Virus record (IMG/VR): IMGVR_UViG_3300008219_003057 | Span: 1-36,565 of that record | Reading direction: 5' to 3' (one strand) | Source: a virus | DNA length: 36,565 bases | In this document: in pieces, positions 3,772 to 36,326 of the stretch | Numbering within the stretch: position 1 is the stretch's first letter | Layout of the letters: each line of letters begins with the position of its first letter | Position numbers and translations under genes: made by a program | Notes under the pieces: generated by a model | Database searches by the model: none | Told to the model about the DNA's origin: nothing | Seen by the model: the letters and a program-made list of their open reading frames with translations, nothing else

Positions 3772-6060
3772 ATGAGATCTTTAGTTCTATCTTTTGTTGT
3801 ATTTTTTGCTATTTGTACGTCAAGCGTACACGCTAAATTTTTAACATTAAATGAAATTGGTGAGGCTTCTTGTAGGGTTAGAGTATCTAGCGCAGCAGGA
3901 AGTGGTACGTCTATTGCAGAAGATGATGATTCTATTTATGTTTTGACCAATGCTCATGTAGTAGGTTCAAATAAGAGTGCAACTTGTGAATTTTTTAGAT
4001 ATGGGCGCAAAACAACTCGTATTCCGGGTTCTGTTGTATGGAAATCACACAATGAAAGAACGGTTAATGATTTTGCTATAATTAAATTACAAAAATCGGC
4101 CTTTGGTGATTATCCTCCTCGGATAGCACCGTTTGCTCCAGTAGATCATCAAATTAAACAAAATGATTACATAGCATCTGCGGGTTGTCCTCAAGCTAGA
4201 TGGTTACAACTCTGGGAAGGACATGCTTTGTCAGACGCTGGCCGAGATCGAGTGTTGTTCACGCCTCCTCCGTTAGGTGGACAAAGTGGATCAGGAGTCT
4301 ATACCGTTATAGATGGTGACACATATCTATGTGGCGTTCTTACATGGAGTATTCAGGGTAAGGGTGGCGCAATACATATTGGTAACTTTTTACGTGCATA
4401 TAAAGGAGAAACATCTGACGATTACTTTGATGAAAAAGTACCACGTACTTGGAAATATATTAGTACTGCTGTAGAAGTAGCGACCACGACTCGAAAAGCA
4501 TATTATGCATTAGGTGACAATGGTCTGTATTATATGCAAAATTTTAATAGTGAAGGATGGAAAGAAGAAGTAACTCTTCCGGTAGGTCATGAATATATTA
4601 AGATTAAAAAATGGAATGTTATATTAGAAGTTCAATGTCCCGGCGGACGTTGTCCTCCCATTATTAATCCGAACAGACCTCCTTCTCCCGGCCCTTCTCC
4701 CGGTCCTGCACCTGATAACGGTGGAGGTGGAGGAGGAAAAAATCCATATGGAACTCTTCCACCTAACCTCGGACCTGATTTTGGCGGTAATGACGAAGGT
4801 GGGAAGGGTCAAATAGATGATTATAAAAAGAAAATTGAAACTTTAGAGCAACAAATACGTCAATTAACTACAGAAAGAAACACTCTTAATCAAAGTATTA
4901 CAGACCTGAACTCTTCTTTAAGTGAACAAACCAGTACTTTAGAGAGATTAAAGAAAGATCTTGAACGTTTAAAGTCTGCAAAAGATATTGATAATGATCA
5001 AATAGACAGCCTAAATAATCGCATTATGAGATTAAATGGAAGCGTCTTACAGCAAATTAGCAACATAGTTGACTTAGAAGAAGACTTAAAACGTAAAGAT
5101 GAGGCTTTAGGTAGTTTAAATGGAGAGTACGAAATATTACAAGGTCAAACTCAGCAGGTAAAAACTCAACGAAATATATTGGGATGGCTCTTTGGCGGTA
5201 CAACAACAGGAGTGACCGTATGGGGCTTACTTTCATTTTACTGGAAATGGAGAGGAAAAAGAAAAGTGAAAAATATTATTGAAGACAGGTTCGATCCAGA
5301 AGAAATTACAGATGTGATAGGTGGAAAGATTGACGATATAGAAGGAAGGAGCACTGACGATTTAAGAGGACTTGCCGATTATCTACAAGATAAATTGGAG
5401 AGTACTATTGAAAATCAGCTAGGCACACTTCAAGATAAACTATATCAAAGAATAGATAGAATAGAAGAGGTTGCTACGAAAGAAAGGGATATTAATATTT
5501 ATAATACCGTGGATGATAGAGATACAGTTAAGGTAATGCCTACACATAGTGTAGACGATACTAAAAGACCTATAGAAACGCCACAAGCCGAAAAGCAAAC
5601 AGACGATTGTGATCAGACTGTATTAGACGATATCCGTCAATCGACTTTTCCCCCAGCCAGCGACAGAATTAAAGAATTTATAGATCTTAAAAAGTCTGAT
5701 GGAGAAAGAATTGAAGAACTAGCATTTTATGCCCATCTTTACAAAGAAGCAGTAGATTTACTTAAACGAAATAAGTTGATTGTTACAAAAGGATCAGCAC
5801 CATACAAAGTGAGTAGTCAAGTCAAGGCTGGAGAAGCTGTTGAAGAATATGTACACAATCAATTTCTCAAGCGAGTATCAAGTGCCACTATTAGTCGTCA
5901 CATTTTATATCATGAGGCAATGATTGGATTTCTATACAGACAAGCGGTTGGAAAATTAAAGAAGGGTGAATTCAACGTTTTGGGGTATAAAGAAGTAGCC
6001 AATACTGTTGAGAAATGGGTAAAAGTAGAATTTCTCAAACGAATGGGTTTTGATTTTTAG
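3772..6060 (+). CDS. Exported, membrane-anchored trypsin-like serine protease with coiled coils
   Basis: This 762-residue protein has, in order: a signal peptide (residues 1-21, …SSVHA); a chymotrypsin-fold protease domain (about 22-210) with the triad visible as H62 (LTNAHVV), D100 (NDFAIIKL) and S172 (GQSGSG); a Pro/Gly-rich linker (about 295-345); a heptad-like coiled coil (about 348-465); one hydrophobic segment (about 469-491) followed by KWRGKRKVK; then a second charged, helical region and two related C-terminal repeats (656-701 and 721-757). The signal peptide plus basic stop-transfer flank predict the protease outside the cytoplasm and about 270 residues inside. All catalytic residues are intact. 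Its target is unknown. Superinfection exclusion, host envelope processing or virion-associated cleavage are possibilities only. Confidence 0.85.
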   Translation: MRSLVLSFVVFFAICTSSVHAKFLTLNEIGEASCRVRVSSAAGSGTSIAEDDDSIYVLTNAHVVGSNKSATCEFFRYGRKTTRIPGSVVWKSHNERTVNDFAIIKLQKSAFGDYPPRIAPFAPVDHQIKQNDYIASAGCPQARWLQLWEGHALSDAGRDRVLFTPPPLGGQSGSGVYTVIDGDTYLCGVLTWSIQGKGGAIHIGNFLRAYKGETSDDYFDEKVPRTWKYISTAVEVATTTRKAYYALGDNGLYYMQNFNSEGWKEEVTLPVGHEYIKIKKWNVILEVQCPGGRCPPIINPNRPPSPGPSPGPAPDNGGGGGGKNPYGTLPPNLGPDFGGNDEGGKGQIDDYKKKIETLEQQIRQLTTERNTLNQSITDLNSSLSEQTSTLERLKKDLERLKSAKDIDNDQIDSLNNRIMRLNGSVLQQISNIVDLEEDLKRKDEALGSLNGEYEILQGQTQQVKTQRNILGWLFGGTTTGVTVWGLLSFYWKWRGKRKVKNIIEDRFDPEEITDVIGGKIDDIEGRSTDDLRGLADYLQDKLESTIENQLGTLQDKLYQRIDRIEEVATKERDINIYNTVDDRDTVKVMPTHSVDDTKRPIETPQAEKQTDDCDQTVLDDIRQSTFPPASDRIKEFIDLKKSDGERIEELAFYAHLYKEAVDLLKRNKLIVTKGSAPYKVSSQVKAGEAVEEYVHNQFLKRVSSATISRHILYHEAMIGFLYRQAVGKLKKGEFNVLGYKEVANTVEKWVKVEFLKRMGFDF

Positions 6061-7880: not shown

Positions 7881-8279
7881 ATGAACTATTACGTTGAACA
7901 CGACCTAAGTTCGAAGATATATAATAAGATATATAATAAGAACAATGAGAATCAGGAAGTATTTGTTGATCCCGCCACGGTTATTTTAATTGGAAAAATT
8001 TCTCTTACAGTAATTCGACTTATTAAAGGTTGTAAAGAATCTAGGGAAGAGCGAGAAGCAGCCGTCAGAACGCCAACGTTGGACGATGACAAGATTTTAA
8101 AAAGGGTAGTGCGGCGTAAGCTAGGTTGGTTTAAAAATATGAGAATGGGCGGTAAAGTTATCAAAGCTATGAAAGAAATGGGTGTTGAACTAAATAATGA
8201 CGAATTAGAACGGGCAGAACTGTTCAATGAAAAGGGAAGAATGACCATTTATGAAGGTGAAAAATATTATGAATTATAA
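7881..8279 (+). CDS. Hypothetical protein with one hydrophobic segment
   Basis: A TTG at 7869 would extend the frame, but the ATG at 7881 follows a GGAGA site and is preferred (132 residues). The N-terminal part contains a repeated IYNKIYNK, encoded by an exact tandem duplication of a 12-base AT unit around 7914-7938, which looks like replication slippage. A hydrophobic stretch PATVILIGKISLTVIRLI could be a membrane or amphipathic helix, followed by a strongly charged basic region and an acidic tail. Function unknown. Confidence 0.6.
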   Translation: MNYYVEHDLSSKIYNKIYNKNNENQEVFVDPATVILIGKISLTVIRLIKGCKESREEREAAVRTPTLDDDKILKRVVRRKLGWFKNMRMGGKVIKAMKEMGVELNNDELERAELFNEKGRMTIYEGEKYYEL

Positions 8280-8293
8280 TACGGAGATATAAT

Positions 8294-9394
8294 ATGGCAA
8301 TTACAAAAAAAATTCAATTTATTAATCAAGAAAAAACCTCATCTACTAGTACCACTAGTACGTCTTATGTGTCACAGGGTACATTGGTAGATGCTGCTAA
8401 GCTTACAGCAGGTAACGAGTACTTAGTAATTGCTTGGGTCAATTCTGTTAGTCCCTCTACTAATGATGGAGCTACTAAGTTTGGTTTTTCTACTAGTAAT
8501 GATTTGGTGGGATCTGCCTATGTAAGACACGATACTAATGATAGCGGAACATATGTTGGATATATAGGACATTGCACTGCTCCAGACCCCACCCAAGACC
8601 TACAAGTTTTTAGAAAAAGACTGTACGGATCACAGTCAGAAACTACTCAGTATGGTCAAGGGTTTTTAATTGACTTATCCTATGCAGGAGCCAGCGGTGG
8701 TTTGATTAGTGGAATAGATTTTTCAAATACCAGAGATATTAGCTCTAATTCTTTTTCAACCGGCGGAACAATGCATACTCATACGGTACATAATTCTGGG
8801 GGCACACAGTTAGTATTGGCAACGGTACGAGGTTACGATTCAGTTAATAGCGTGTTGTATGGATTATATATTAATGATGTATTAGTTAGTAGTGGTTCAC
8901 GATATATAGCCGATGCCGCAGATGTTAAATCTGTAGGGTTTGCAGGCGGATATACTATGAGTAGTGGAGATACGATTAAGCTTAAAAATTTGGATGCGAA
9001 TACTGTAACAGTAGATTATAGATATATTTTTACTTTAAACCTTGATAATGCTCCAGAAACTATGCATACTGGACAATTATCAACTTGGACTAACTATGGG
9101 TCTAGTGGCACATGGGGTACTGCAACTGTTGATGGTAACGAAGATAATTCTTTTATAGTCGCTATGGGTAGACAAACAGTGATAGGTGCCGAATCTGGTC
9201 GAATGGCCGCTATAAGCTTAAAAAATAATACGTCTAATGAATATATGTTGTTCGGTAATCGTACCACAGATTTCGATCCTTTGTACTTTCCCGCCACATC
9301 GGTAGGGGCAAGTAGCTCTCAATATGAAACGGCAGTCGTTGTAGGCACAGGTGTCATTGGACAAGCCGATACCATAGAAATGCACACTTTGTAA
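8294..9394 (+). CDS. Probable structural/surface beta-rich protein
   Basis: This 366-residue protein is rich in S, T, G and Y and in short beta-strand patterns, with few charged helices, like phage fibre, tail-knob or decoration proteins. A low-complexity SSTSTTSTSYVS stretch lies near the N-terminus. Three similar-sized beta-rich segments can be made out (about 20-130, 135-250, 255-366), the first and last ending in comparable hydrophobic strands. A GGAG site at 8283-8286 precedes the ATG. No catalytic motif. The virion role is inferred from composition and neighbours only. Confidence 0.6.
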   Translation: MAITKKIQFINQEKTSSTSTTSTSYVSQGTLVDAAKLTAGNEYLVIAWVNSVSPSTNDGATKFGFSTSNDLVGSAYVRHDTNDSGTYVGYIGHCTAPDPTQDLQVFRKRLYGSQSETTQYGQGFLIDLSYAGASGGLISGIDFSNTRDISSNSFSTGGTMHTHTVHNSGGTQLVLATVRGYDSVNSVLYGLYINDVLVSSGSRYIADAADVKSVGFAGGYTMSSGDTIKLKNLDANTVTVDYRYIFTLNLDNAPETMHTGQLSTWTNYGSSGTWGTATVDGNEDNSFIVAMGRQTVIGAESGRMAAISLKNNTSNEYMLFGNRTTDFDPLYFPATSVGASSSQYETAVVVGTGVIGQADTIEMHTL

Positions 9395-11768: not shown

Positions 11769-12871
11769 AAATTAATACAGATTTAAAATTAGACTTTGAT
11801 GATACGCTTTTAGTGCCTCACAGAACTAAAACCGCTTCTAGACAAAATATCAAACTACAAAGAGGATTTCAATTCTATCATTCCACAAGACCATGGAGAG
11901 GTACTCCAATTATAGCAGCCAATATGGATAGCACCGGAACATTGGATATGTCTCATGCGATATCTAAACATCAAATGATAACTTGTTTGCACAAACATCA
12001 TGATCATAAAAAGCTCTTACAATTAGAATACTGTCCATTTTCCACCTATACTTGGTACAGCTTAGGTATTCAAGATATAGAGTTTGATAATTTATGTGAT
12101 ATAGCAGATAAAACACATATCATACCAAATCTATGTATTGATGTTGCTAATGGTTATACAGAAGATTTTGTCAACTTCTGCGCTAAAGTGCGAAAACAAT
12201 TTGCTGATAAGACTATAATTATGGCAGGTAATGTTTGCACTCCAGAAATGGTTCAAGAGCTGATCCTTCATGGGGGAGTTGATATTGTAAAGGTTGGTAT
12301 TGGACCCGGATCTGCCTGCACTACAAGATTAAAAACAGGTATAGGATATCCACAACTTTCAGCTATTATAGAATGTTCTCATGCGGCCCATGGTTTAAAA
12401 AGCCAAGAAAAAAGAATGGGATTGATTTGTGCGGATGGAGGATGTAGGAATGCCGGTGATGTGTGCAAGGCATTTGCTGCAAATGCGGACTTTGTAATGA
12501 TAGGAGGTATGCTTGCTGGTACGGAAGAATGTGAGGGAGAATGGGAAGAGGGAACTTTAGTGAACTGGAATCATTGCACAGACAAACCTCCCACAGTTAC
12601 GAATCAAAAGGTGAAAAAAACTTTTAAATTTTATGGAATGTCTTCTAAAATAGCCCAAGACAAACACGGTCAAGGGCTAAAAGACTATAGAAGTAGCGAA
12701 GGCAGAATGATCCAAGTTCCATATAAAGGCCCTGTGAAAGAAGTGGTACAGGATATTCTGGGAGGCATCAGGAGTTGTTGTGCTTATATAGGAGCGTCTT
12801 CAATCAAAGATATGGCAAAATGTGCAGAGTTTATTCGTGTTAATAGAACACATTTTGATCAATCGCTATAG
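11765..12871 (+). CDS. guaC: GMP reductase (IMPDH/GMPR family)
   Basis: Catalyses NADPH-dependent deamination of GMP to IMP. The protein matches GMP reductase better than IMP dehydrogenase: MKINTDLKLDFDDTLLVPHR, PIIAANMD, KVGIGPGSACTTRLKTG with the catalytic Cys (C185), GYPQLSAIIEC, DGGCRNAGDVCKAF, IGGMLAGTEE and FYGMSS, with no CBS-domain insertion. Length (368) is close to the 340-350 of the bacterial and animal enzymes. It starts by ATGA overlap with dut and is embedded in a nucleotide-supply block. Guanine-salvage enzymes of this kind are uncommon in phages. An altered substrate (for example dGMP) cannot be ruled out. Confidence 0.9.
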   Translation: MKINTDLKLDFDDTLLVPHRTKTASRQNIKLQRGFQFYHSTRPWRGTPIIAANMDSTGTLDMSHAISKHQMITCLHKHHDHKKLLQLEYCPFSTYTWYSLGIQDIEFDNLCDIADKTHIIPNLCIDVANGYTEDFVNFCAKVRKQFADKTIIMAGNVCTPEMVQELILHGGVDIVKVGIGPGSACTTRLKTGIGYPQLSAIIECSHAAHGLKSQEKRMGLICADGGCRNAGDVCKAFAANADFVMIGGMLAGTEECEGEWEEGTLVNWNHCTDKPPTVTNQKVKKTFKFYGMSSKIAQDKHGQGLKDYRSSEGRMIQVPYKGPVKEVVQDILGGIRSCCAYIGASSIKDMAKCAEFIRVNRTHFDQSL

Positions 12872-12881
12872 CTTTTGGGTG

Positions 12882-12887
12882 TATAAT
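12882..12887 (+). promoter_or_regulatory. Possible promoter -10 element
   Basis: TATAAT lies 10 bases after the guaC stop and about 45 bases before the next start. The nearest -35-like hexamer (TTGATC at 12855) is 21 bases away, too far, so this is only a candidate, perhaps needing a phage factor. Confidence 0.25.
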
Positions 12888-12931
12888 AAAACAACAAGGC
12901 TAATTTCTAACGTTCTTCAACTGGGGCCTAT

Positions 12932-13387
12932 ATGTTTAATATTTTTCTAAGGTCATATCGTAGATTAATCAAAGGCCTTAGTGAAGCCCAATTAGATACA
13001 CATCACCCGACACCCCATTCAAACGAATCGTCTGAAGTCATATCAACCCCATTAGAAAACATATGTGGTCAAATGACTATCTATTTTAGAGAAGATGGAG
13101 AATTTGCAATTACTTCAGATTTTATCCGTCAAGATGCAGAAACCATCGAGATGAGTGGCATTCTATTACACAGACTTAACTCAGGACACTTGGCAGAGTA
13201 CTTCATTCAGGCCTTAAAATTATGGGCAGAAGAAGATCTACAGAAAGAAAACTTTGCTAAAGAAGTTATTAAAGAATGGAAAAGTCTATTCTATGAAAAT
13301 AATTCAGATAAATTGAAATTTCTCAAGGGCGCTAAGCTAGCTGTTGATCCTTCAGATGTATTTGGATTGAAAGGCATTAAGTCATGA
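12932..13387 (+). CDS. Hypothetical protein upstream of thyA
   Basis: A 151-residue protein with an MFNIFLRSYRRLIKGL start, a Pro/His/Ser-rich linker, a short beta segment (QMTIYFREDGEFAITSDF) and a helical C-terminal half. The start follows a GGGG at 12923-12926. The stop overlaps the thyA start (ATGA), so it is co-translated with thymidylate synthase. No recognised motif. Small helical proteins of this type are common between phage nucleotide genes, and no role is proposed. Confidence 0.7.
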   Translation: MFNIFLRSYRRLIKGLSEAQLDTHHPTPHSNESSEVISTPLENICGQMTIYFREDGEFAITSDFIRQDAETIEMSGILLHRLNSGHLAEYFIQALKLWAEEDLQKENFAKEVIKEWKSLFYENNSDKLKFLKGAKLAVDPSDVFGLKGIKS

Positions 13388-14211
13388 GAGCATATTTAGA
13401 CTTAGTACAAAACACACTCATTCAGGGATATTGGAAAGAAACACGCACCGGACTTCGTGCATTGACTACCTTTGGACAAATATTTAAACATAATATGTGT
13501 GGGAGTTTTCCTCTTTTGACCACAAAAACAATGGTATATAAAAGTATGTGGGTTGAATTGGAAGGATTTATTAAGGGGGTTACTTCAAAGAGATGGTATC
13601 AAGAAAGAAATTGTAATATTTGGAATGAATGGTCAAATCCCACTAATGATGACGATAACGATTTAGGTCCAATTTATGGTTATCAATGGCGTAGATTTAA
13701 TGAGGTATATGATGAGAATGATAACGGTTCTTTCAATGGTTATGATCAATTAAAAAATATCGTAGAAACACTTAAAAACGATCCAGAAAATCGGCGGATG
13801 GTATGTTCGGCTTGGAATCCTATCCAAATCGATAGTATGGCATTACCACCATGTCACGTTTTATGGAATGTGGTTGTGATAGGAAATAAAATTAATTTAT
13901 TATGGCATCAAAGAAGTTGTGACTTAATGTTAGGTGTTCCATTTAACATCGCTAGCTACGCAACCCTATTACTTTTATTAGCTCAAGAAGCCGATCTTTC
14001 TCCCGGTGTATTACAAGGTACATTTGCCGATTGTCACATTTATGAGAATCAAATAGATGGAGCAAGAGAACAACTTAAACGCCAACCTACATCGCTTCCA
14101 ACCGTAGACTTGGGAGACTACAATTCTATTTACACATGGAGTAGTGAGAACGCTATTTTAAAAAATTATAATCCACATTCGAAAATTGATTTCGGTCCTA
14201 TAGCAGTATGA
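13384..14211 (+). CDS. thyA: Thymidylate synthase
   Basis: Methylates dUMP to dTMP using methylenetetrahydrofolate. The signature features are intact in 275 residues: LGPIYGYQWR, the nucleophile in LPPCHVLWN (C157), the phosphate-binding RSCD (177-180), and GVPFNIASYA, in which N188 is the residue that selects dUMP (dCMP hydroxymethylases carry Asp there). This argues against a cytosine-hydroxymethylating enzyme. It overlaps the upstream gene by four bases. It works with dUTPase and dCMP deaminase, which both supply dUMP. Confidence 0.95.
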   Translation: MRAYLDLVQNTLIQGYWKETRTGLRALTTFGQIFKHNMCGSFPLLTTKTMVYKSMWVELEGFIKGVTSKRWYQERNCNIWNEWSNPTNDDDNDLGPIYGYQWRRFNEVYDENDNGSFNGYDQLKNIVETLKNDPENRRMVCSAWNPIQIDSMALPPCHVLWNVVVIGNKINLLWHQRSCDLMLGVPFNIASYATLLLLLAQEADLSPGVLQGTFADCHIYENQIDGAREQLKRQPTSLPTVDLGDYNSIYTWSSENAILKNYNPHSKIDFGPIAV

Positions 14212-14220
14212 GGTATGATC

Positions 14221-14679
14221 ATGGCTAATTTACCCCTTCCTAGTGGTTATGACGTATATTGGGAAAAGTGGATAGACGCTTTCGAGCAAGAAGATAGTCA
14301 ACTTGAAGAAGAAATTCAAGAAATGCAAGAACTATTAGCGAATGAAGAAGGTATAGATGAAGACTTAGAAATTGTAGACCATTCTGTATCCCACATTAGG
14401 AGTATCGTTACTCCCTTTGGCATACTTCCTTTAACAGAACAAACTAAGGCGAGTAGTCATTTTAAACTTTGGGTAGGACATTCTAATTTTAAACTTACAG
14501 AAGATTTTTACAAGGTGATTGGACAACAACCCGGTATAGAAGCGTTAGATATTTTAACGCCATACCGTTTTAGAATAGCAGTAGGAAAAATGTTTGTCGA
14601 TAGAGATGTGATGAAGGACGTAAGGGATACAATGGTTACTCATGTAACGGACGAAAACGAAAATGACGAGCAGGAATAA
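14221..14679 (+). CDS. Hypothetical acidic protein
   Basis: GAGGT at 14210-14214 is correctly spaced for the ATG at 14221, not for the in-frame ATG at 14215, so the start is set at MANLPLPSG (152 residues). Residues about 18-55 are very acidic and helical (repeated EE and QE). The C-terminal half looks like a small alpha/beta fold (GILPLTEQTKASSHFKLWVG, ALDILTPYRFRIAVG). The end overlaps the ClpP-like gene by 17 bases, suggesting the two products are made together. I do not recognise the family. Confidence 0.7.
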   Translation: MANLPLPSGYDVYWEKWIDAFEQEDSQLEEEIQEMQELLANEEGIDEDLEIVDHSVSHIRSIVTPFGILPLTEQTKASSHFKLWVGHSNFKLTEDFYKVIGQQPGIEALDILTPYRFRIAVGKMFVDRDVMKDVRDTMVTHVTDENENDEQE

Positions 14680-15343
14680 TAGGACTTTACATTCAAGTGT
14701 CTCGGAGGCGCATGATAACGATCTGATTGTGTCTACACGGGAGATATTTTTGCATGGATATATGGATGAAGAGGAAGATGGTGGGATAGATGGCAGACTT
14801 TCTAATAGGTTCTTAAAAAATCTTCGTATATTAGAAAGTATGAATGCTAATCCTATTATAATACACCAGCATAGTACGGGTGGAGAATGGGAAAGTGGGA
14901 TGATGATATACGATGCCATACAGCAAAGTGCGGCATCATTTATTTTTGTATGTCACGGCATGGCAGCTTCAATGGGCAGTCTAATTCCGCAGGCTGCATA
15001 TAAAAAGGGCATACGTTTAACGATGCCTAATTGTTATTGGCTAATTCATGAAGGAGAACAAGAAATTTCAGGTACGGTAAAGCAAGTTCAATCATATTAT
15101 GAACTTTCCAGAGTAAGTAAATCTCACATGTATGATATATATACTACGGTCTGTGTAGGAAGTGGGGATCATTTTAAGGGTATGAGTAAGTCTAAAACTA
15201 GAAATTATATTAGACGAAAACTAGAATCCAAAGAAGACTGGTGGTTGACCGCTCAAGATGCCGTAAAATACGGCTTTGTAGACGGTATGGTGGGATCTAC
15301 AAAGTATAAATCAATCATGGATGTTAAAAAGGGTTTGGTGTAA
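14663..15343 (+). CDS. clpP: ClpP-like serine protease
   Basis: Has the ClpP/crotonase fold and the full ClpP triad: S103 in GMAASMGS, H129 in WLIHEG and D192 in KEDWWLTAQDA, followed by KYGFVDGM. HQHSTGGEWESGMMIYD corresponds to the NSPGG region that shapes the oxyanion hole. At 226 residues it is slightly longer than bacterial ClpP, with an extra N-terminal segment. Cellular ClpP works as a chambered peptidase with a Clp ATPase. Phage versions are often head-maturation proteases or partners of host ClpX/ClpA. No head gene is visible to decide, and an endopeptidase role is certain only at the level of fold. Confidence 0.87.
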   Translation: MTSRNNRTLHSSVSEAHDNDLIVSTREIFLHGYMDEEEDGGIDGRLSNRFLKNLRILESMNANPIIIHQHSTGGEWESGMMIYDAIQQSAASFIFVCHGMAASMGSLIPQAAYKKGIRLTMPNCYWLIHEGEQEISGTVKQVQSYYELSRVSKSHMYDIYTTVCVGSGDHFKGMSKSKTRNYIRRKLESKEDWWLTAQDAVKYGFVDGMVGSTKYKSIMDVKKGLV

Positions 15344-24106: not shown

Positions 24107-25036
24107 ATGATGAAAAAAACATTATGGATGACGTTATTAATTTTGGCTAGTGTCTCTAGGGTATTTGCCGGTAATGCAGAACTCTATCAAAAGTTACAGG
24201 ATGTTTCTGTGACAGTGAAGGCTGGAAATGCAGAAGGATCAGGGGTTATTATTACTAGAGACGTTCCTATTGGAACAGACAGGACGGAAAAAATTAATTT
24301 TGTTTGGACCGCTGCTCATGTAGTAGATAATTTAAGATCTGTAAGGACTACAATTGAAGAAGGAATGCCGATAAAGATTGTTGAATTCAAAGATGCTCAA
24401 ATCATTAAGGAATTAGTAGAAAAGGGTCGTCGTGTTGGTGAAATTAAGATGGATGCTAAAGTTCTAAAATATAGCCACTCTGATAGTGGAGAAGACCTTG
24501 CATTGTTACTAGTAAGAAAAAGAGACTTTGTTGATCAAAACATTCTTTTTTATGAAGGAGATGATCCTGTACCAGTAGGCACCGAACTCTATCATGTGGG
24601 CAGTCTTTTGGGTCAGGTAGGTTCTAATTCCATGACCCGTGGTATAATGTCCAAGGTAGGAAGGGTGTTGTATTTAGGTACGGGTGATGGTGTTGTTTTT
24701 GATCAGACAAGTGCTCCAGCATTTCCGGGAAGTTCTGGTGGAGGAGTGTTTCTTACTGAATCGTCGGGAGAGCAAACAGGAAGGTATGTAGGAATGTTGG
24801 TGCGTGGTGCTGGCGAAACCTTTAATTTAATAGCACCGGTTAGACGTATGAGAAAATGGGCAAAAGAACAAAACATTTTATGGGCTATAGACGAAAACGT
24901 TCCCATGCCTTCGTATGAAGAAATTATCAAGATGCCAATAGAACATAGGGCTTCAGAAGAGCCAACAAGTATTAGCGAAGATGCCAAGAGATTTCCAGTA
25001 CTTCTGCCCAAGCCCAAACCTGAACCAAGCCAATGA
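24107..25036 (+). CDS. Second exported trypsin-like serine protease
   Basis: A 309-residue protein with a signal peptide (about 1-22, …SRVFA) and a complete chymotrypsin-fold triad: H71 (WTAAHVV), D130 (SGEDLALLL), S210 (PGSSGGGVF, the GxSGG motif). After the domain comes MRKWAKEQNILWAID and a Pro-rich C-terminal tail. Unlike the 762-residue protease it has no membrane segment. It begins three bases after the recombinase gene and overlaps the nuclease gene behind it by ATGA. Two start codons (24107, 24110) are equally good. Target unknown. Confidence 0.87.
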   Translation: MMKKTLWMTLLILASVSRVFAGNAELYQKLQDVSVTVKAGNAEGSGVIITRDVPIGTDRTEKINFVWTAAHVVDNLRSVRTTIEEGMPIKIVEFKDAQIIKELVEKGRRVGEIKMDAKVLKYSHSDSGEDLALLLVRKRDFVDQNILFYEGDDPVPVGTELYHVGSLLGQVGSNSMTRGIMSKVGRVLYLGTGDGVVFDQTSAPAFPGSSGGGVFLTESSGEQTGRYVGMLVRGAGETFNLIAPVRRMRKWAKEQNILWAIDENVPMPSYEEIIKMPIEHRASEEPTSISEDAKRFPVLLPKPKPEPSQ

Positions 25037-25458
25037 ATATTATTGACTTAGATGGTTATGCATATAAGTGGAAAATAGAACAACGCTTTATAAGAGCAAA
25101 TGATGCAAGGCCAAGATCTAAATTACACCTTACAGCTAGGTCTTTACTGAAAGAAATACATCCTACTTTACAAATTTGTGAGGAAGTTCCTGTACGGCTC
25201 AGAAAAAATAAAAAGGTGTTTGTTGATTTCTATATTAATACTGTAAAAACAGTCATAGAGGTTCATGGAGAACAGCACTATAAATTTAACACTCTTTATC
25301 ATAGCTCGGCACAAGACTTCATTAATCAAAAACGTCGGGATAATGATTTAAAAGAATGGTGTCAACTTAATAATCTCAATTATATTGAATTGCTATTTAA
25401 CGAGGACAAACACAAATGGAAAAACAGGATCTTGCAAGGGAACGATTGGCAAAGTTAG
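25033..25458 (+). CDS. PD-(D/E)XK/Vsr-like endonuclease
   Basis: The core FVDFYINTVKTVIEVHGEQH resembles the DFxxx…EVDGxQH block of Vsr/DUF559-type nucleases, with candidate metal ligands D65 and E76. It is followed by the QKRRDNDLKEWC helix typical of that group. 141 residues. It sits in the recombination operon right after the protease, overlapping it by ATGA. It may nick or resolve DNA during recombination or be a homing-type remnant; residue assignments are by eye. Confidence 0.62.
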   Translation: MNIIDLDGYAYKWKIEQRFIRANDARPRSKLHLTARSLLKEIHPTLQICEEVPVRLRKNKKVFVDFYINTVKTVIEVHGEQHYKFNTLYHSSAQDFINQKRRDNDLKEWCQLNNLNYIELLFNEDKHKWKNRILQGNDWQS

Positions 25459-31636: not shown

Positions 31637-32128
31637 ATGATTGAAATTAAAATTACTCCACAAATGAAAAAACGAGCGTGGACCAAAGCTAGGCAAATGG
31701 GTAAGCTTAGAAACTCTATTACTCGTGGCCAAGGAAACATAGCGGGATTTTTGGGAGAAGAAGTGGCTAACGAATTAATTAAAGGACAAGTTAATAATAC
31801 TTATGATTATGACATCTTATATAAGAATATTAAATATGATGTAAAAACTAAAAGATGTACGTCTGCCCCTAAAGATCACTATGAATGTTCAATTGCGGCG
31901 TATAACACTAAACAAAAATGCGATAGATATGCATTCGTTCGCATAGAGTGGGTTAATGGCAAATGGGGAAGAGCATGGGTATTGGGATGGTTAGATCATA
32001 AAGAATATTTTAATAAAGCCGAAAAACTCAATCGAGGAGATATTGATAGGTCTAATGGATATATGGTAAAAGCAGACTGTTATAATGTGCCGATTAATAA
32101 ACTAAGAAATTTTAGGAGAAGGAAATGA
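31637..32128 (+). CDS. Small PD-(D/E)XK-fold nuclease-like protein
   Basis: A 163-residue protein with GFLGEEVANELI (E41), YDYDIL (D57, D59), then YDVKTKRC (D68, K70), the expected order of a PD-(D/E)XK active site. The C-terminal part is basic. It lies directly between the RecB-like nuclease and polymerase genes and starts at the base after the previous stop. A resolvase or flap-type endonuclease is possible. Active-site mapping is by eye. Confidence 0.6.
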   Translation: MIEIKITPQMKKRAWTKARQMGKLRNSITRGQGNIAGFLGEEVANELIKGQVNNTYDYDILYKNIKYDVKTKRCTSAPKDHYECSIAAYNTKQKCDRYAFVRIEWVNGKWGRAWVLGWLDHKEYFNKAEKLNRGDIDRSNGYMVKADCYNVPINKLRNFRRRK

Positions 32129-34002
32129 CTTATGTTCCTTTGCATGTTCATTCTGAATATAGCTTGTTGAATGGACTTTCGCAAACACATCAGATTTCAA
32201 AAAGAATTTCTGATATCGAAAGCAATGTCTGCGCATTAACAGATCATGGTAGTGTTTCTGGTGCGGTTGACTTTTCAAGAACTCTAACTAATGCTTCGCA
32301 AAAACCCATTCTGGGATGCGAATTTAATATTTGTTTTAATAATGCTAAAGAAAAAACTCAAGAAAATCGAGATTTAATTCACCAAGTTATTTTAGCAAAG
32401 AATTTGCAGGGCTGGAAAGATATTTTAGGTCTAGTATCCCAATCAAACCACCCAGATCAATTCTACTATAAGCCACGCATTGATTTTGATCAGCTAAAAA
32501 AAGTCGCACAAAAAGGGAATTTAATATCTTTTAGCGGACATTTAGGTTCATATTTAGGTAGGCTTGCAGAAGAGAACGAACCAGACGATTTGATTTCCAA
32601 AGCTGCACTGAAAATGCAAGAAATATTTGGAAAAGATAATTTTTTTATTGAAATACAGTTAATCGATTCTGATAACAATGAAACTTCAAAAATTACAGCT
32701 GCCAAATTACGTGAGATTTCTAAGCAAACTGGCATTCCATGTGTGGCAACTCCAGACGCACATTATCCTACTAGAGAGGCCGCAGAGGACCAACAAGTGC
32801 TTCTATGCACGTCTTTAAAAAAGACTATAGGACAAGTTCAACGGGAATTAAAAGAGGGCAAATCTAAATCCTTACAGTCCTTTTTTTCTTCAAACAACTT
32901 CCATATTCCCTCCTATGAGGAGATGAAACAATACCATAATGATGAAGAGCTAGCCAATACAATTCTCATTGCCGATATGTGCGAACCCTATAATATTCTC
33001 GGACCTCCCAATCCACCCGAATTCAAATGTCCCTCTGGATATTCTCCCAAAGAATACTTGCGTTATCTTTGTAAAATGGGTTGGGCACAAAAAATGCAGC
33101 ACGTTAACAAAGAGAACCCCAAATTTCCACAATACGGAGAACGGGTTAATGAAGAGTTAGAGATATTCGAAGGAGCAGGTCTATCTAGTTACTTTTTAAT
33201 TGTACAAGATATCTTAAAATATTGTAAAGACTCTGGTTATTTAACGGGTCCGGGACGAGGCAGTGCGGCAGGATGTATGGTTTCTTATTTAATTGGTATT
33301 ACTCAAATTGATCCAGTGAAATATGATTTGGTATTTGAAAGATTTTATAATGCGGGAAGAAATACAGACGAACGAATTTCTATGCCCGATATCGATATCG
33401 ATATTCCAAAACAAGCCCGAGAAAAAGTTATTGAATATATTAAACAAAGATACGGTACAAACAATGTTGCTCAAATAGTAACCTATCAAACATTACAAGG
33501 ACGGTCTGCATTAAAAAGAGTCATGCAAGCTCGTGGTAATATATCTTTTACAGAACAAAACGAAATTACTAAACATATTATGGATGAGGCAAAGATTGCA
33601 GATGAACTTCAGGACATGAAAGAAGAGCTTGGAGAATCATCCCTAATTTTATGGGCATTAAAAAATAGAAAAGAAAAACTAAAAGACTGGTGTGAAATAG
33701 GTGAGAATGGAAAATTAGAAGGTAAACTATCTAAGGTATTTGAACAGGCTATGCGTATGGAGGGAACCAAAATTATTCAGTCTAAACATGCAGCAGGTGT
33801 TGTAATTTCACCCTCTCCTATTTATGATACATGTCCGATGATTAGATCTGCGGCTAAAGGAGATAAAAATCTATTGGCCGGATTTGAAGGACCAAGCTGT
33901 GAGGATGTTGGTCTGTTAAAATTAGACGTACTAGGAATTAGAATGTTAGATAAAATTATGGAAGTTCCGCGTATTATTTCACCCTTACTTCAACAGTCAT
34001 AG
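32125..34002 (+). CDS. dnaE: DNA polymerase III alpha, N-terminal half (PHP and palm)
   Basis: The first half of a split polymerase. An N-terminal PHP domain is seen (LHVHSEYS at residues 6-13, LTDHG). The palm shows GPGRGSAAG (375-383), the metal-binding SMPDIDIDI (D422, D424) and the third catalytic Asp in GLLKLDVLG (D601). The frame then ends at residue 625, only 24 residues past D601, where a normal DnaE would continue into the fingers region. The next open frames are in other phases. All three catalytic Asp are thus here, while the rest of alpha is encoded at 34677. AGGAGAAGG site before the start. Confidence 0.92.
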   Translation: MTYVPLHVHSEYSLLNGLSQTHQISKRISDIESNVCALTDHGSVSGAVDFSRTLTNASQKPILGCEFNICFNNAKEKTQENRDLIHQVILAKNLQGWKDILGLVSQSNHPDQFYYKPRIDFDQLKKVAQKGNLISFSGHLGSYLGRLAEENEPDDLISKAALKMQEIFGKDNFFIEIQLIDSDNNETSKITAAKLREISKQTGIPCVATPDAHYPTREAAEDQQVLLCTSLKKTIGQVQRELKEGKSKSLQSFFSSNNFHIPSYEEMKQYHNDEELANTILIADMCEPYNILGPPNPPEFKCPSGYSPKEYLRYLCKMGWAQKMQHVNKENPKFPQYGERVNEELEIFEGAGLSSYFLIVQDILKYCKDSGYLTGPGRGSAAGCMVSYLIGITQIDPVKYDLVFERFYNAGRNTDERISMPDIDIDIPKQAREKVIEYIKQRYGTNNVAQIVTYQTLQGRSALKRVMQARGNISFTEQNEITKHIMDEAKIADELQDMKEELGESSLILWALKNRKEKLKDWCEIGENGKLEGKLSKVFEQAMRMEGTKIIQSKHAAGVVISPSPIYDTCPMIRSAAKGDKNLLAGFEGPSCEDVGLLKLDVLGIRMLDKIMEVPRIISPLLQQS

Positions 34003-34012
34003 AGGATTTCAA

Positions 34013-34687
34013 ATGAATAACCGTTGGATTATAGTTTTTGATTGGGAGACTGACAGTCCAGATCCCACCACTTGCAATCCCGTAGAATTAGCAGCAGTTC
34101 CGATAGACCCTAGAACTTTGGATATTAAAATAGACAAAGCTTTTAGTGCTGCTATTAAACCTCCGGGAATTACCAAAGAAGAATACTTTACTGATGAAAA
34201 ACAGAAGACCATCGAATGGCACGCAAAACAAAGGGGTGTGACCAGCGAAGATATTATCAAGAGTTGGAAATCGGGTAAGAGCGAAAAAATTGTTTGGAAA
34301 AACTTTTGTGAATATTGTAAAAAGTTTAATATAGAAAAGTCTCATAATAACTGGTATACTGAGCCTATTGCTGCTGGCTATAACATTATAGGCTTTGATC
34401 TTCCCATTTGTGAAAGACTAGTAAAAAAACATAAAACGAAAATGCCCTTTGCTAAAGTCACCAAAATAGATGTTATGGACCTTATGTTTTATTGGCTTGA
34501 AAATTTAGACGAACCTCAAAATATGAGATTAGATACTATGCGAGGTTGGTTTGGTATTAAAGCAGAGCAAGCACACGAAGCTTTATCTGATACTATAGAT
34601 AGTGCAAAATTATTAACACAATTTATGAAATTTCATAGAAGACAATCTAGTGTGGCTAAATTTAAGGGAGCGATGTGTGACAAGTGA
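34013..34687 (+). CDS. dnaQ: DnaQ-like 3'-5' proofreading exonuclease
   Basis: A DEDDh exonuclease: D10 and E12 in VFDWETD, D129 in NIIGFDLPI, H188 and D193 in HEALSD. It lies exactly between the two halves of the alpha subunit, ten bases after the first and overlapping the second by 11. In E. coli the equivalent epsilon subunit proofreads for alpha. 224 residues. GAGG site. Gene position strongly suggests it acts with this polymerase. Confidence 0.87.
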   Translation: MNNRWIIVFDWETDSPDPTTCNPVELAAVPIDPRTLDIKIDKAFSAAIKPPGITKEEYFTDEKQKTIEWHAKQRGVTSEDIIKSWKSGKSEKIVWKNFCEYCKKFNIEKSHNNWYTEPIAAGYNIIGFDLPICERLVKKHKTKMPFAKVTKIDVMDLMFYWLENLDEPQNMRLDTMRGWFGIKAEQAHEALSDTIDSAKLLTQFMKFHRRQSSVAKFKGAMCDK

Positions 34688-36326
34688 AGTCTTTGAATGT
34701 GGATGCAAATTTGAAGTGCGCAGTGGCGAGGTTGTCTATGACCCTAACATTGAAACACTCCCATTGAACTGCGAAGCTACTTGGGATATGATTTGCGAAG
34801 GCAATACCAAAGGTGTGTTCCAATTGGAATCACAGTTGGGTAGAAGTATGTCCGAAAAAGTTAAGCCTCGCAATATTGAAGAACTATCAGATTTAATTGC
34901 TATTATTCGACCCGGTTGTATGGAAGCTATTGTAGATGGCAAAAGTCTTACACAACACTATATAGATCGTAAGCATGGCATAGATCCGATAGAGTATTTC
35001 CACGACGCACTCAAACCCATTCTTTCTAGTACCTATGGCATTTTAGTTTACCAAGAACAGGCTTTGCTGATAGCTAGGGATATTGGAGGATTTGATTTAC
35101 AGGAAGCCGACATTCTTCGTAAAGCTATTGGAAAAAAGAACGTTTCTCTAATGACTAAGTTGAGAAAACAATTTATTGAAAAGGCCGAAGTGAAGGGGAC
35201 GGTTGATAAACAACAGGCAAAAGAAATTTTTGGGTGGATTGAGAAGTCACAAAGATATTCTTTTAATAAGTCTCATTCAGTCAGCTATGCATACAATGCT
35301 TATCTTACAGCTTATACAAAACAACATTTCCCACACGAGTTTTTTACCTCATATCTCAAACATTCTATCGGCAAGCCAGATGCATATTTGGAAATAGAAG
35401 AATTAGTAAACAATGCTCGTTTGATGAACATCGACGTTCAGCCTCCTAATATCAAACAAATGAATAAATATTTTACATTAATTGTTGATACATTCCCAAC
35501 TTTTGGCATTACAGAAATTAAGGGCGTAGGTGGTTCGGTATACGACAAAATGATATTGTGTTTAGAAAGAAATAAAATAGACTTACAAGCGTGTGATTGG
35601 GATACATTTCTTATTGGCTTTGGCTCTTGCATTAAAGCAGACTCATTTGAAGCCCTAATATTAAGTGGTGCTCTAGATTGTTTTAAAATTAGTCGTAGTA
35701 AAATGAGCCATGAATTAAAAATGTTTAGAGAATTAAGCAAGCGAGAAATTCCTTGGATAGAAAAGTACAAACAAGACAGTCCAAATCAAAACTTTGCTGA
35801 GTGCATTCAAGCCATGCTAGATGAAAATAACTGGTCAGATCGTCATCGACCAATATTTCGAAAAGATAGAGTTGAAATTGTAGAAAGCATCATTGATTCT
35901 TTAAAAAATCCCGGCTATGAATTAGTTGATTTATCGGGTTGGAAAGCTCGACAAGAAGAAAAATACTTAGGCGTATCATTAACCTGTGCCAGAGTAGACG
36001 AATATGATATCAGTGGAGCAAACTGCACCTGTAAGGAATACGTAGATGGTTTTAATTCCAAAGGTACAATTAGGATAGCGGCTCAGGTGGACGACGTTAA
36101 AGAGTGGAAAATTAAACGGGGAAGTGCTAAGGGGCAAAAAATGGCTTTCGTGACCGTGAGTGATGGAACATGCAATCTTGATAGTGTAACAATTTTTTCT
36201 GAAGAATGGAATAAATATGCTAAACATATTAAGGAAGGAAGTATACTATTACTGATAGGTAATAGAGATAAAAAAAGAGGAAGTTTTTTAATAAAATCGG
36301 TGTCTAAGATTAAAAATCTAGCTTAG
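34677..36326 (+). CDS. dnaE: DNA polymerase III alpha, C-terminal half (GTG start)
   Basis: The second half of the split polymerase. The frame could start at GTG 34650, but GTG 34677 is six bases after AAGGGAG and is preferred (549 residues). It begins TSEVFECGCKFEV, then LNCEATWDMICEGNTKGVFQLES, which is where a normal DnaE continues after the third Asp. Fingers follow with RYSFNKSHS (194-201), intact; this is the place where cyanobacterial DnaE carries its split intein, absent here. Next come an ILSGALD HhH-like part, YLGVSLT, and a C-terminal OB fold. The halves sum to about 1174 residues, the size of a full alpha. Confidence 0.9.
   Translation: MTSEVFECGCKFEVRSGEVVYDPNIETLPLNCEATWDMICEGNTKGVFQLESQLGRSMSEKVKPRNIEELSDLIAIIRPGCMEAIVDGKSLTQHYIDRKHGIDPIEYFHDALKPILSSTYGILVYQEQALLIARDIGGFDLQEADILRKAIGKKNVSLMTKLRKQFIEKAEVKGTVDKQQAKEIFGWIEKSQRYSFNKSHSVSYAYNAYLTAYTKQHFPHEFFTSYLKHSIGKPDAYLEIEELVNNARLMNIDVQPPNIKQMNKYFTLIVDTFPTFGITEIKGVGGSVYDKMILCLERNKIDLQACDWDTFLIGFGSCIKADSFEALILSGALDCFKISRSKMSHELKMFRELSKREIPWIEKYKQDSPNQNFAECIQAMLDENNWSDRHRPIFRKDRVEIVESIIDSLKNPGYELVDLSGWKARQEEKYLGVSLTCARVDEYDISGANCTCKEYVDGFNSKGTIRIAAQVDDVKEWKIKRGSAKGQKMAFVTVSDGTCNLDSVTIFSEEWNKYAKHIKEGSILLLIGNRDKKRGSFLIKSVSKIKNLA

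Follow-up and report, generated by a model that had tools for sequence, protein, structure and literature searches.

Introduction

In cyanobacteria (Ssp/Npu), DnaE is encoded by two genes, and a split intein at the FNKSHS region joins the two parts by splicing. Enzymes divided between two genes are also known from phages: the split family-B polymerase of Aeromonas phage 25 (gp43A/gp43B) co-purifies with polymerase activity, and the NrdA of phage Aeh1, split by mobE, is fully functional as two polypeptides (PMC2988022); the split of a minimal DNA polymerase III (Pol III) alpha in jumbo phages has been described as separating nucleoside triphosphate-binding from Mg/template-binding parts (PMC7824862); and the split replicase PolB of MIJ3 comes with a split intein (PMC6892783). 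Among isolated actinophages, two-gene DnaEs are found in Wollypog (gp56/gp59, with an HNH gene between them), Sienna (gp64/gp66), Aesir (gp55/gp56) and Zenon; the passages found on phage 0305phi8-36 describe no split DnaE. Here we analyze a further case from a 36,565-nucleotide stretch of viral DNA (IMG/VR record IMGVR_UViG_3300008219_003057, positions 1 to 36,565; henceforth the window), in which a model reading the letters alone had noticed a Pol III alpha split into two genes around its proofreading exonuclease (henceforth the original prediction). The three genes concerned, dnaE-N, an exonuclease gene and dnaE-C, occupy positions 32125-36326. We propose, with a probability of roughly 87%, that they specify a two-polypeptide C-family (DnaE-type) replicase with a dedicated exonuclease, whose assembly, polymerase activity and exonuclease binding we infer. 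The proposal is based on the gene structure, the collinear coverage of the alpha core, conservation, selection, a single branch in the phylogenetic tree, and the lack of any other detectable PolA, PolB or DnaE on long contigs.

Gene structure and the position of the break

The domains of a Pol III alpha are present in the window, though distributed over two proteins: dnaE-N matches the Pfam models PHP and DNA_pol3_alpha, and dnaE-C matches DNA_pol3_finger, HHH_6 and OB, with PHP, DNA_pol3_alpha and DNA_pol3_finger all scoring above the curated cut-offs. The same partition is seen against PHROG 405 (DNA polymerase), of which dnaE-N matches 42-613 and dnaE-C 622-1072. The intervening gene matches RNase_T, within which lies its D, E, D, H, D active site, and PHROG 192 (DNA polymerase exonuclease subunit). 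Thus, the layout that had been read from the sequence holds: the PHP domain and all three palm aspartates are on a 625-residue protein, as Pfam and the alignment to E. coli alpha agree, the fingers-to-OB part is on a separate 549-residue protein, and a DEDDh exonuclease gene separates them. In domain content and catalytic aspartates this is a member of the DnaE group, which departs from it only in lacking the single-polypeptide alpha that is usual for, albeit not strictly defining of, the group. Also in line with the original prediction, the genes use three different reading frames, each with a purine-rich site 5' of it that could serve as its own ribosome-binding site; the exonuclease gene starts 10 nt past the dnaE-N stop, and the first 11 nt of dnaE-C overlap the end of the exonuclease gene. 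The mechanical open reading frame (ORF) of dnaE-C begins 9 codons upstream of the GTG at 34677, at which we set the start because of the Shine-Dalgarno-like site before it and the alignment with the starts of relatives (Table 1).

To place the break, both halves were aligned jointly with E. coli DnaE and nine other intact DnaEs, a check that had been suggested along with the prediction. D422, D424 and D601 of dnaE-N align with E. coli D401, D403 and D555, the last conserved residue of dnaE-N (618) with E. coli 572, and residue 25 of dnaE-C with E. coli 586. Hence, the two proteins part within the linker that connects the palm's final helix to the fingers (E. coli alpha ~573-585), the length of which varies among intact DnaEs too; on T. 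aquaticus alpha, dnaE-N ends at 636 and dnaE-C starts at 645. The break had been predicted to lie just after the third catalytic aspartate: the palm end region is correct, but the conserved part of dnaE-N extends 17 residues beyond that aspartate, such that the cut follows the last helix of the palm. The SFNKSHS motif, the site of the cyanobacterial intein, is uncut inside dnaE-C, and the break is indeed unlike the cyanobacterial one. The N-terminal extension of dnaE-C has no aligned counterpart at this place in intact DnaEs; the C halves of two members of the clade (L108 and L110) lack this CxC extension, which is present in the other aligned members.

AlphaFold2 models of the two halves, each modelled singly, have a mean predicted local distance difference test score (pLDDT) of 78.8 for dnaE-N and 90.5 for dnaE-C, and the best PDB matches of both are Pol III alpha structures. 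The least confident parts of the dnaE-N model include the C-terminal tail next to the break and most of residues 376-417, where some of the GPGRGS loop lies; this would fit surfaces modelled without their partner, although a shallow alignment could give the same result.

Table 1. Features of the split dnaE locus, in window coordinates.
Feature	Position	Strand	Basis
Shine-Dalgarno-like site AGGAGAAGG of dnaE-N	32114..32122	+	read directly; putative
dnaE-N, 625 aa: PHP domain, palm, thumb; catalytic D422, D424, D601	32125..34002	+	
Non-conserved dnaE-N tail after the last conserved residue (618), stop included; fracture point	33979..34002	+	
Shine-Dalgarno-like site AGAGGA of the exonuclease gene	34001..34006	+	read directly; putative
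DEDDh (DnaQ-like) 3'-5' exonuclease, 224 aa; D10, E12, D129, H188, D193	34013..34687	+	
Shine-Dalgarno-like site AAGGGAG of dnaE-C, within the exonuclease gene	34664..34670	+	read directly; putative
dnaE-C, 549 aa, GTG start: fingers, HhH, OB fold	34677..36326	+	
dnaE-C N-terminal extension with conserved CxC motif (FECGCKF), modelled as two short strands	34677..34754	+	

Conservation, selection and ancestry

Scans of IMG/VR with several members of the clade as queries recovered 147 distinct N-half loci, 142 of which can be read at the N-half 3' end. In each of these 142, the dnaE-N stop lies at most 14 codons from the same conserved end, and all 120 loci that retain both downstream genes have the order N–exonuclease–C on one strand, with none fused; the three-gene order, a search for which had been proposed at the outset, is therefore recurrent. 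The arrangement recurs in L001 and L002 (100%) and L003 (93/88%), among others, and dnaE-N identity to the window falls to ~40% in L120. In contrast, outgroup DnaEs read through the break site in one open frame in 83/83 cases (79 loci from bacterial genomes, E. coli and three phage records). A maximum-likelihood tree built from a sample of these sequences places the split loci and two N-only contigs on one side of a single branch with support of 100/99, and hence a single old origin of the split would be the simplest account. No isolated relative of the clade, whose contigs reach 244 kb, was found: among 50,697 phage records, dnaE-N has no match above ~36% identity and the exonuclease has no match.

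The distance from the N stop to C is 674-4,840 nt, with a median of 878 (120 loci). The spacing is thus not fixed, with relatives holding up to 4.8 kb of other genes between the halves. The original prediction also had the exonuclease expressed in fixed proportion, which says more than these data do. The genes in the N–exonuclease or exonuclease–C gaps differ among relatives and include those for SET-domain proteins, uracil-DNA glycosylase (UDG), MazG, ThyX and cytidylyltransferase-like proteins, as well as small genes; the gap of L024 holds a look-alike of the window's own gene at 31637-32128, and that of L120/L121 two DEDD exonucleases and a UDG.

The split genes are under strong purifying selection, with pairwise ratios of non-synonymous to synonymous substitution rates (dN/dS) of 0.014-0.077 for N, exonuclease and C wherever dS could be estimated. 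The palm D/D/D is kept in every scorable sequence among 140, and the exonuclease D/E/D in 121/121, with its H and last D kept wherever not gapped. Conservation exceeds 94% at each of the nine positions of the PHP metal site, one of which has H in place of the C of T. aquaticus; because this site is conserved clade-wide beside a DEDDh exonuclease, two candidate proofreading sites may exist. The window's own dnaE-N has N16 at a PHP metal-site position where most relatives have D. The N and C distances are correlated (r = 0.96), a value that shared ancestry alone would raise too. One pair of loci (L004 and L013) differs at 6% of residues in the N halves, 3% in the exonucleases and 15% in the C halves, which suggests that halves have been exchanged through recombination. 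The exonuclease C-terminus carries a motif like QxSVxKFKGxF in most close relatives, weakening in distant members; it is a possible partner-binding peptide.

Exactly one fingers domain was found in each of 20/20 long clade contigs (47-136 kb), and no PolA or PolB in any of them. A contig in a Lokiarchaeota metagenome-assembled genome (L129, JABXKB010000087.1) is a clade member whose nearest neighbor in the tree is L018; it is probably a viral contig binned with that genome. Another (L020:2251-2577) carries a gene for a two-piece transfer-messenger RNA (tmRNA; permuted, alphaproteobacterial-type) with the tag AEPCLALAA, which hints at an alphaproteobacterial host.

A two-chain replicase and its alternatives

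Briefly, we advance the following mechanism. Alpha-N (PHP, thumb and the palm with the three catalytic aspartates) and alpha-C (fingers, HhH and OB) would each be made from a cistron of its own and bind one another non-covalently where the palm–fingers linker used to be, completing a single active site. Proofreading would fall to the DEDDh exonuclease whose gene lies between theirs, a role for which the evidence is the conservation of gene order. Phage 25 gp43A/gp43B and the split NrdA of Aeh1 are direct precedents for such a reassembly (PMC2988022). The presence of the break in more than 100 distinct loci, the purifying selection and the lack of another PolA, PolB or DnaE in the 20 long contigs indicate a real three-gene arrangement rather than a frameshift or a split intein. 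Some observations nevertheless weigh against this account: the same 20 contigs have no bacterial-type beta clamp; being fragments, they do not prove the absence of a second polymerase, although all twenty agree; and, as regards the origin of the split, the deep-branching locus L122 is the sole one with a plausible homing nuclease exactly at the break, on a 17.8-kb contig without the exonuclease, the C half or a fingers domain.

Frameshifts are common in metagenome contigs, and we considered whether the split reflects a mistake in sequencing or assembly, or a pseudogene in decay; the same break in 142 loci, the dN/dS of 0.01-0.08 and the retained catalytic residues refute this, and uphold the earlier view of a designed three-gene arrangement as against a simple frameshift. 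It is also very improbable that the halves are covalently joined, whether through a split intein, through ribosome bypassing or through splicing that removes an intron with the exonuclease gene from the RNA. Other places in these genes do have inteins (the C half of L012, and two further sites in L235), but the short tails after the conserved end of N in the 142 loci, and a C half that starts within a few codons of its conserved start, leave no room for intein halves. The features of a cyanobacterial-type split intein are accordingly missing, and the absence of intein residues at either end was correctly called from the sequence. In the window the exonuclease gene abuts dnaE-N and overlaps dnaE-C, and elsewhere the gap between N and C ranges up to several kilobases, with complete unrelated genes inside it; such turnover of gap genes makes it less credible that RNA splicing or ribosome bypass joins the halves in general. 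Removal of the intervening segment from the RNA had been named as an outcome that would overturn the original prediction, and there is no sign of it: with E up to 1, Rfam gives zero matches in the window region, and at the gathering score it finds no intron in eight relatives, only a tmRNA.

Somewhat less remote, but still improbable, is the possibility that no polymerase is rebuilt at all, such that alpha-N is a PHP nuclease or regulator, alpha-C a DNA-binding factor, and the host replicase copies the genome. The well-kept PHP metal site would suit this. However, the palm aspartates are on N and the fingers on C under equally strong constraint, and the halves co-occur in every locus with enough downstream sequence, L122 excepted; moreover, the window has genes for a DnaB-like helicase, a primase, SSB and nucleotide metabolism, in keeping with a virus that brings its own replicase. 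A two-chain replicase thus remains our preferred reading. In an extended form of it, the exonuclease would be an obligate structural part of a three-chain core, with the nuclease or the CxC extension of alpha-C holding the palm–fingers junction; we consider this unlikely, but were it true, proofreading and polymerization would assemble solely as one unit.

Origin of the split

How the split arose is less certain. The break may descend from a fracture by a homing endonuclease, i.e., a homing-type nuclease gene would have been inserted and its place later taken by other genes. The dnaE-N stop of L122 lies within an overlapping gene (7907-8776) whose product has two treble-clef domains of the DUF4379 type and, at its C-terminus, a nuclease-like domain; proteins that combine DUF4379-related domains with an EDxHD/Vsr-like nuclease have been described as phage homing endonucleases (PMC12350094). 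In the window there is no homing endonuclease gene at the break; there, two genes cover one ancestral ORF that is intact in the outgroups. The alternative, a gene fission or rearrangement at the palm–fingers linker without any homing endonuclease, concerns only the origin and is compatible with a two-chain replicase; we give it slightly less than an even chance. Most loci are without a homing-type nuclease in the gap, where the neighbors are small genes and those for UDG, ThyX, MazG, SET-domain proteins and nucleotidyltransferases. On the other hand, the gene at the break in L122, the HNH gene between the two DnaE genes of the isolated phage Wollypog and the recurrent inteins in L012 and L235 speak against fission.

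These inteins mark the dnaE locus as one that mobile elements target. In L012, the C half (12824-15217) has an in-frame 249-aa intein (PF14890, with an HNH-like motif and the ends HN|C) at RPG|C in the fingers region. In L235 (~4200-4720 and 8534-8910), and also in L233, intein-like inserts follow GPGRG on the N side and SFNKS on the C side, the latter near the cyanobacterial DnaE intein site; the GPGRG insert, which consists of two ORFs in different frames, is perhaps a split intein. In the window itself, an HNH/homing-endonuclease-like gene (25033-25458, PHROG 9084) lies close to a UvsX-like gene. In a Staphylococcus phage SPbeta-like sequence (L320), dnaE is broken after the GRGS loop and before the Asp pair; a short GIY-YIG-like ORF separates the parts, and the interruption is possibly an intron.

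Comparison with known split enzymes

A replicase cut through its core yet kept across a large clade offers a natural test of how far the palm and fingers of DnaE can separate, of whether a gene fracture can become fixed and persist over long times, and of how a nuclease gene of the proofreading type gets locked beside its polymerase. On the practical side, gene finders would label the halves as two separate partial polymerases.

The reconstitution of a polymerase from two such polypeptides had been called unusual, a claim that stands only in part, since split phage replicases are already known (PMC2988022, PMC7824862, PMC10580990; actinophage DnaEs). The gp43A/gp43B of Aeromonas phages 25 and 44RR are likewise a replicase on two genes with an insert and no reported intein (PMC2988022), but they belong to family B and the insert is a seg-type homing endonuclease or untranslated sequence in place of the exonuclease gene found here. 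The NrdA of Aeh1 differs in being a ribonucleotide reductase with the homing nuclease still in place. The PolA of the OM43 phages MEP401 and MEP402 is also a marine-virus replicase on two ORFs around a small gene, but it is of family A, has its exonuclease domain fused to the N part, and was suspected by its authors to contain an intron (PMC10580990). Closer in kind, the minimal Pol III alpha of the group 2.2 jumbo phages is a C-family alpha on two genes that was likewise proposed to reconstitute; however, it is without the other Pol III domains, its genes are far apart, and it occurs beside a family-B polymerase (PMC7824862). In contrast, the enzyme of the window keeps PHP, fingers, HhH and OB, has all three aspartates on N, and belongs to a clade with no PolB in the 20 contigs. 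The two-gene DnaEs of actinophages are alike in sometimes having a small gene or an HNH nuclease gene between them, but they are cut at about the PHP/palm boundary with the polymerase core left whole, whereas in the window the cut goes through the core and parts the palm from the fingers. Finally, relative to the cyanobacterial split DnaE, the FNKSHS region is uncut and there are no intein halves at the break. Our searches of open-licence papers found no description of this arrangement. What appears to be new, then, is that a DnaE with its full set of features is divided between palm and fingers, with no intein and with a DEDDh exonuclease gene inside, and is the apparent sole replicase of a large clade.

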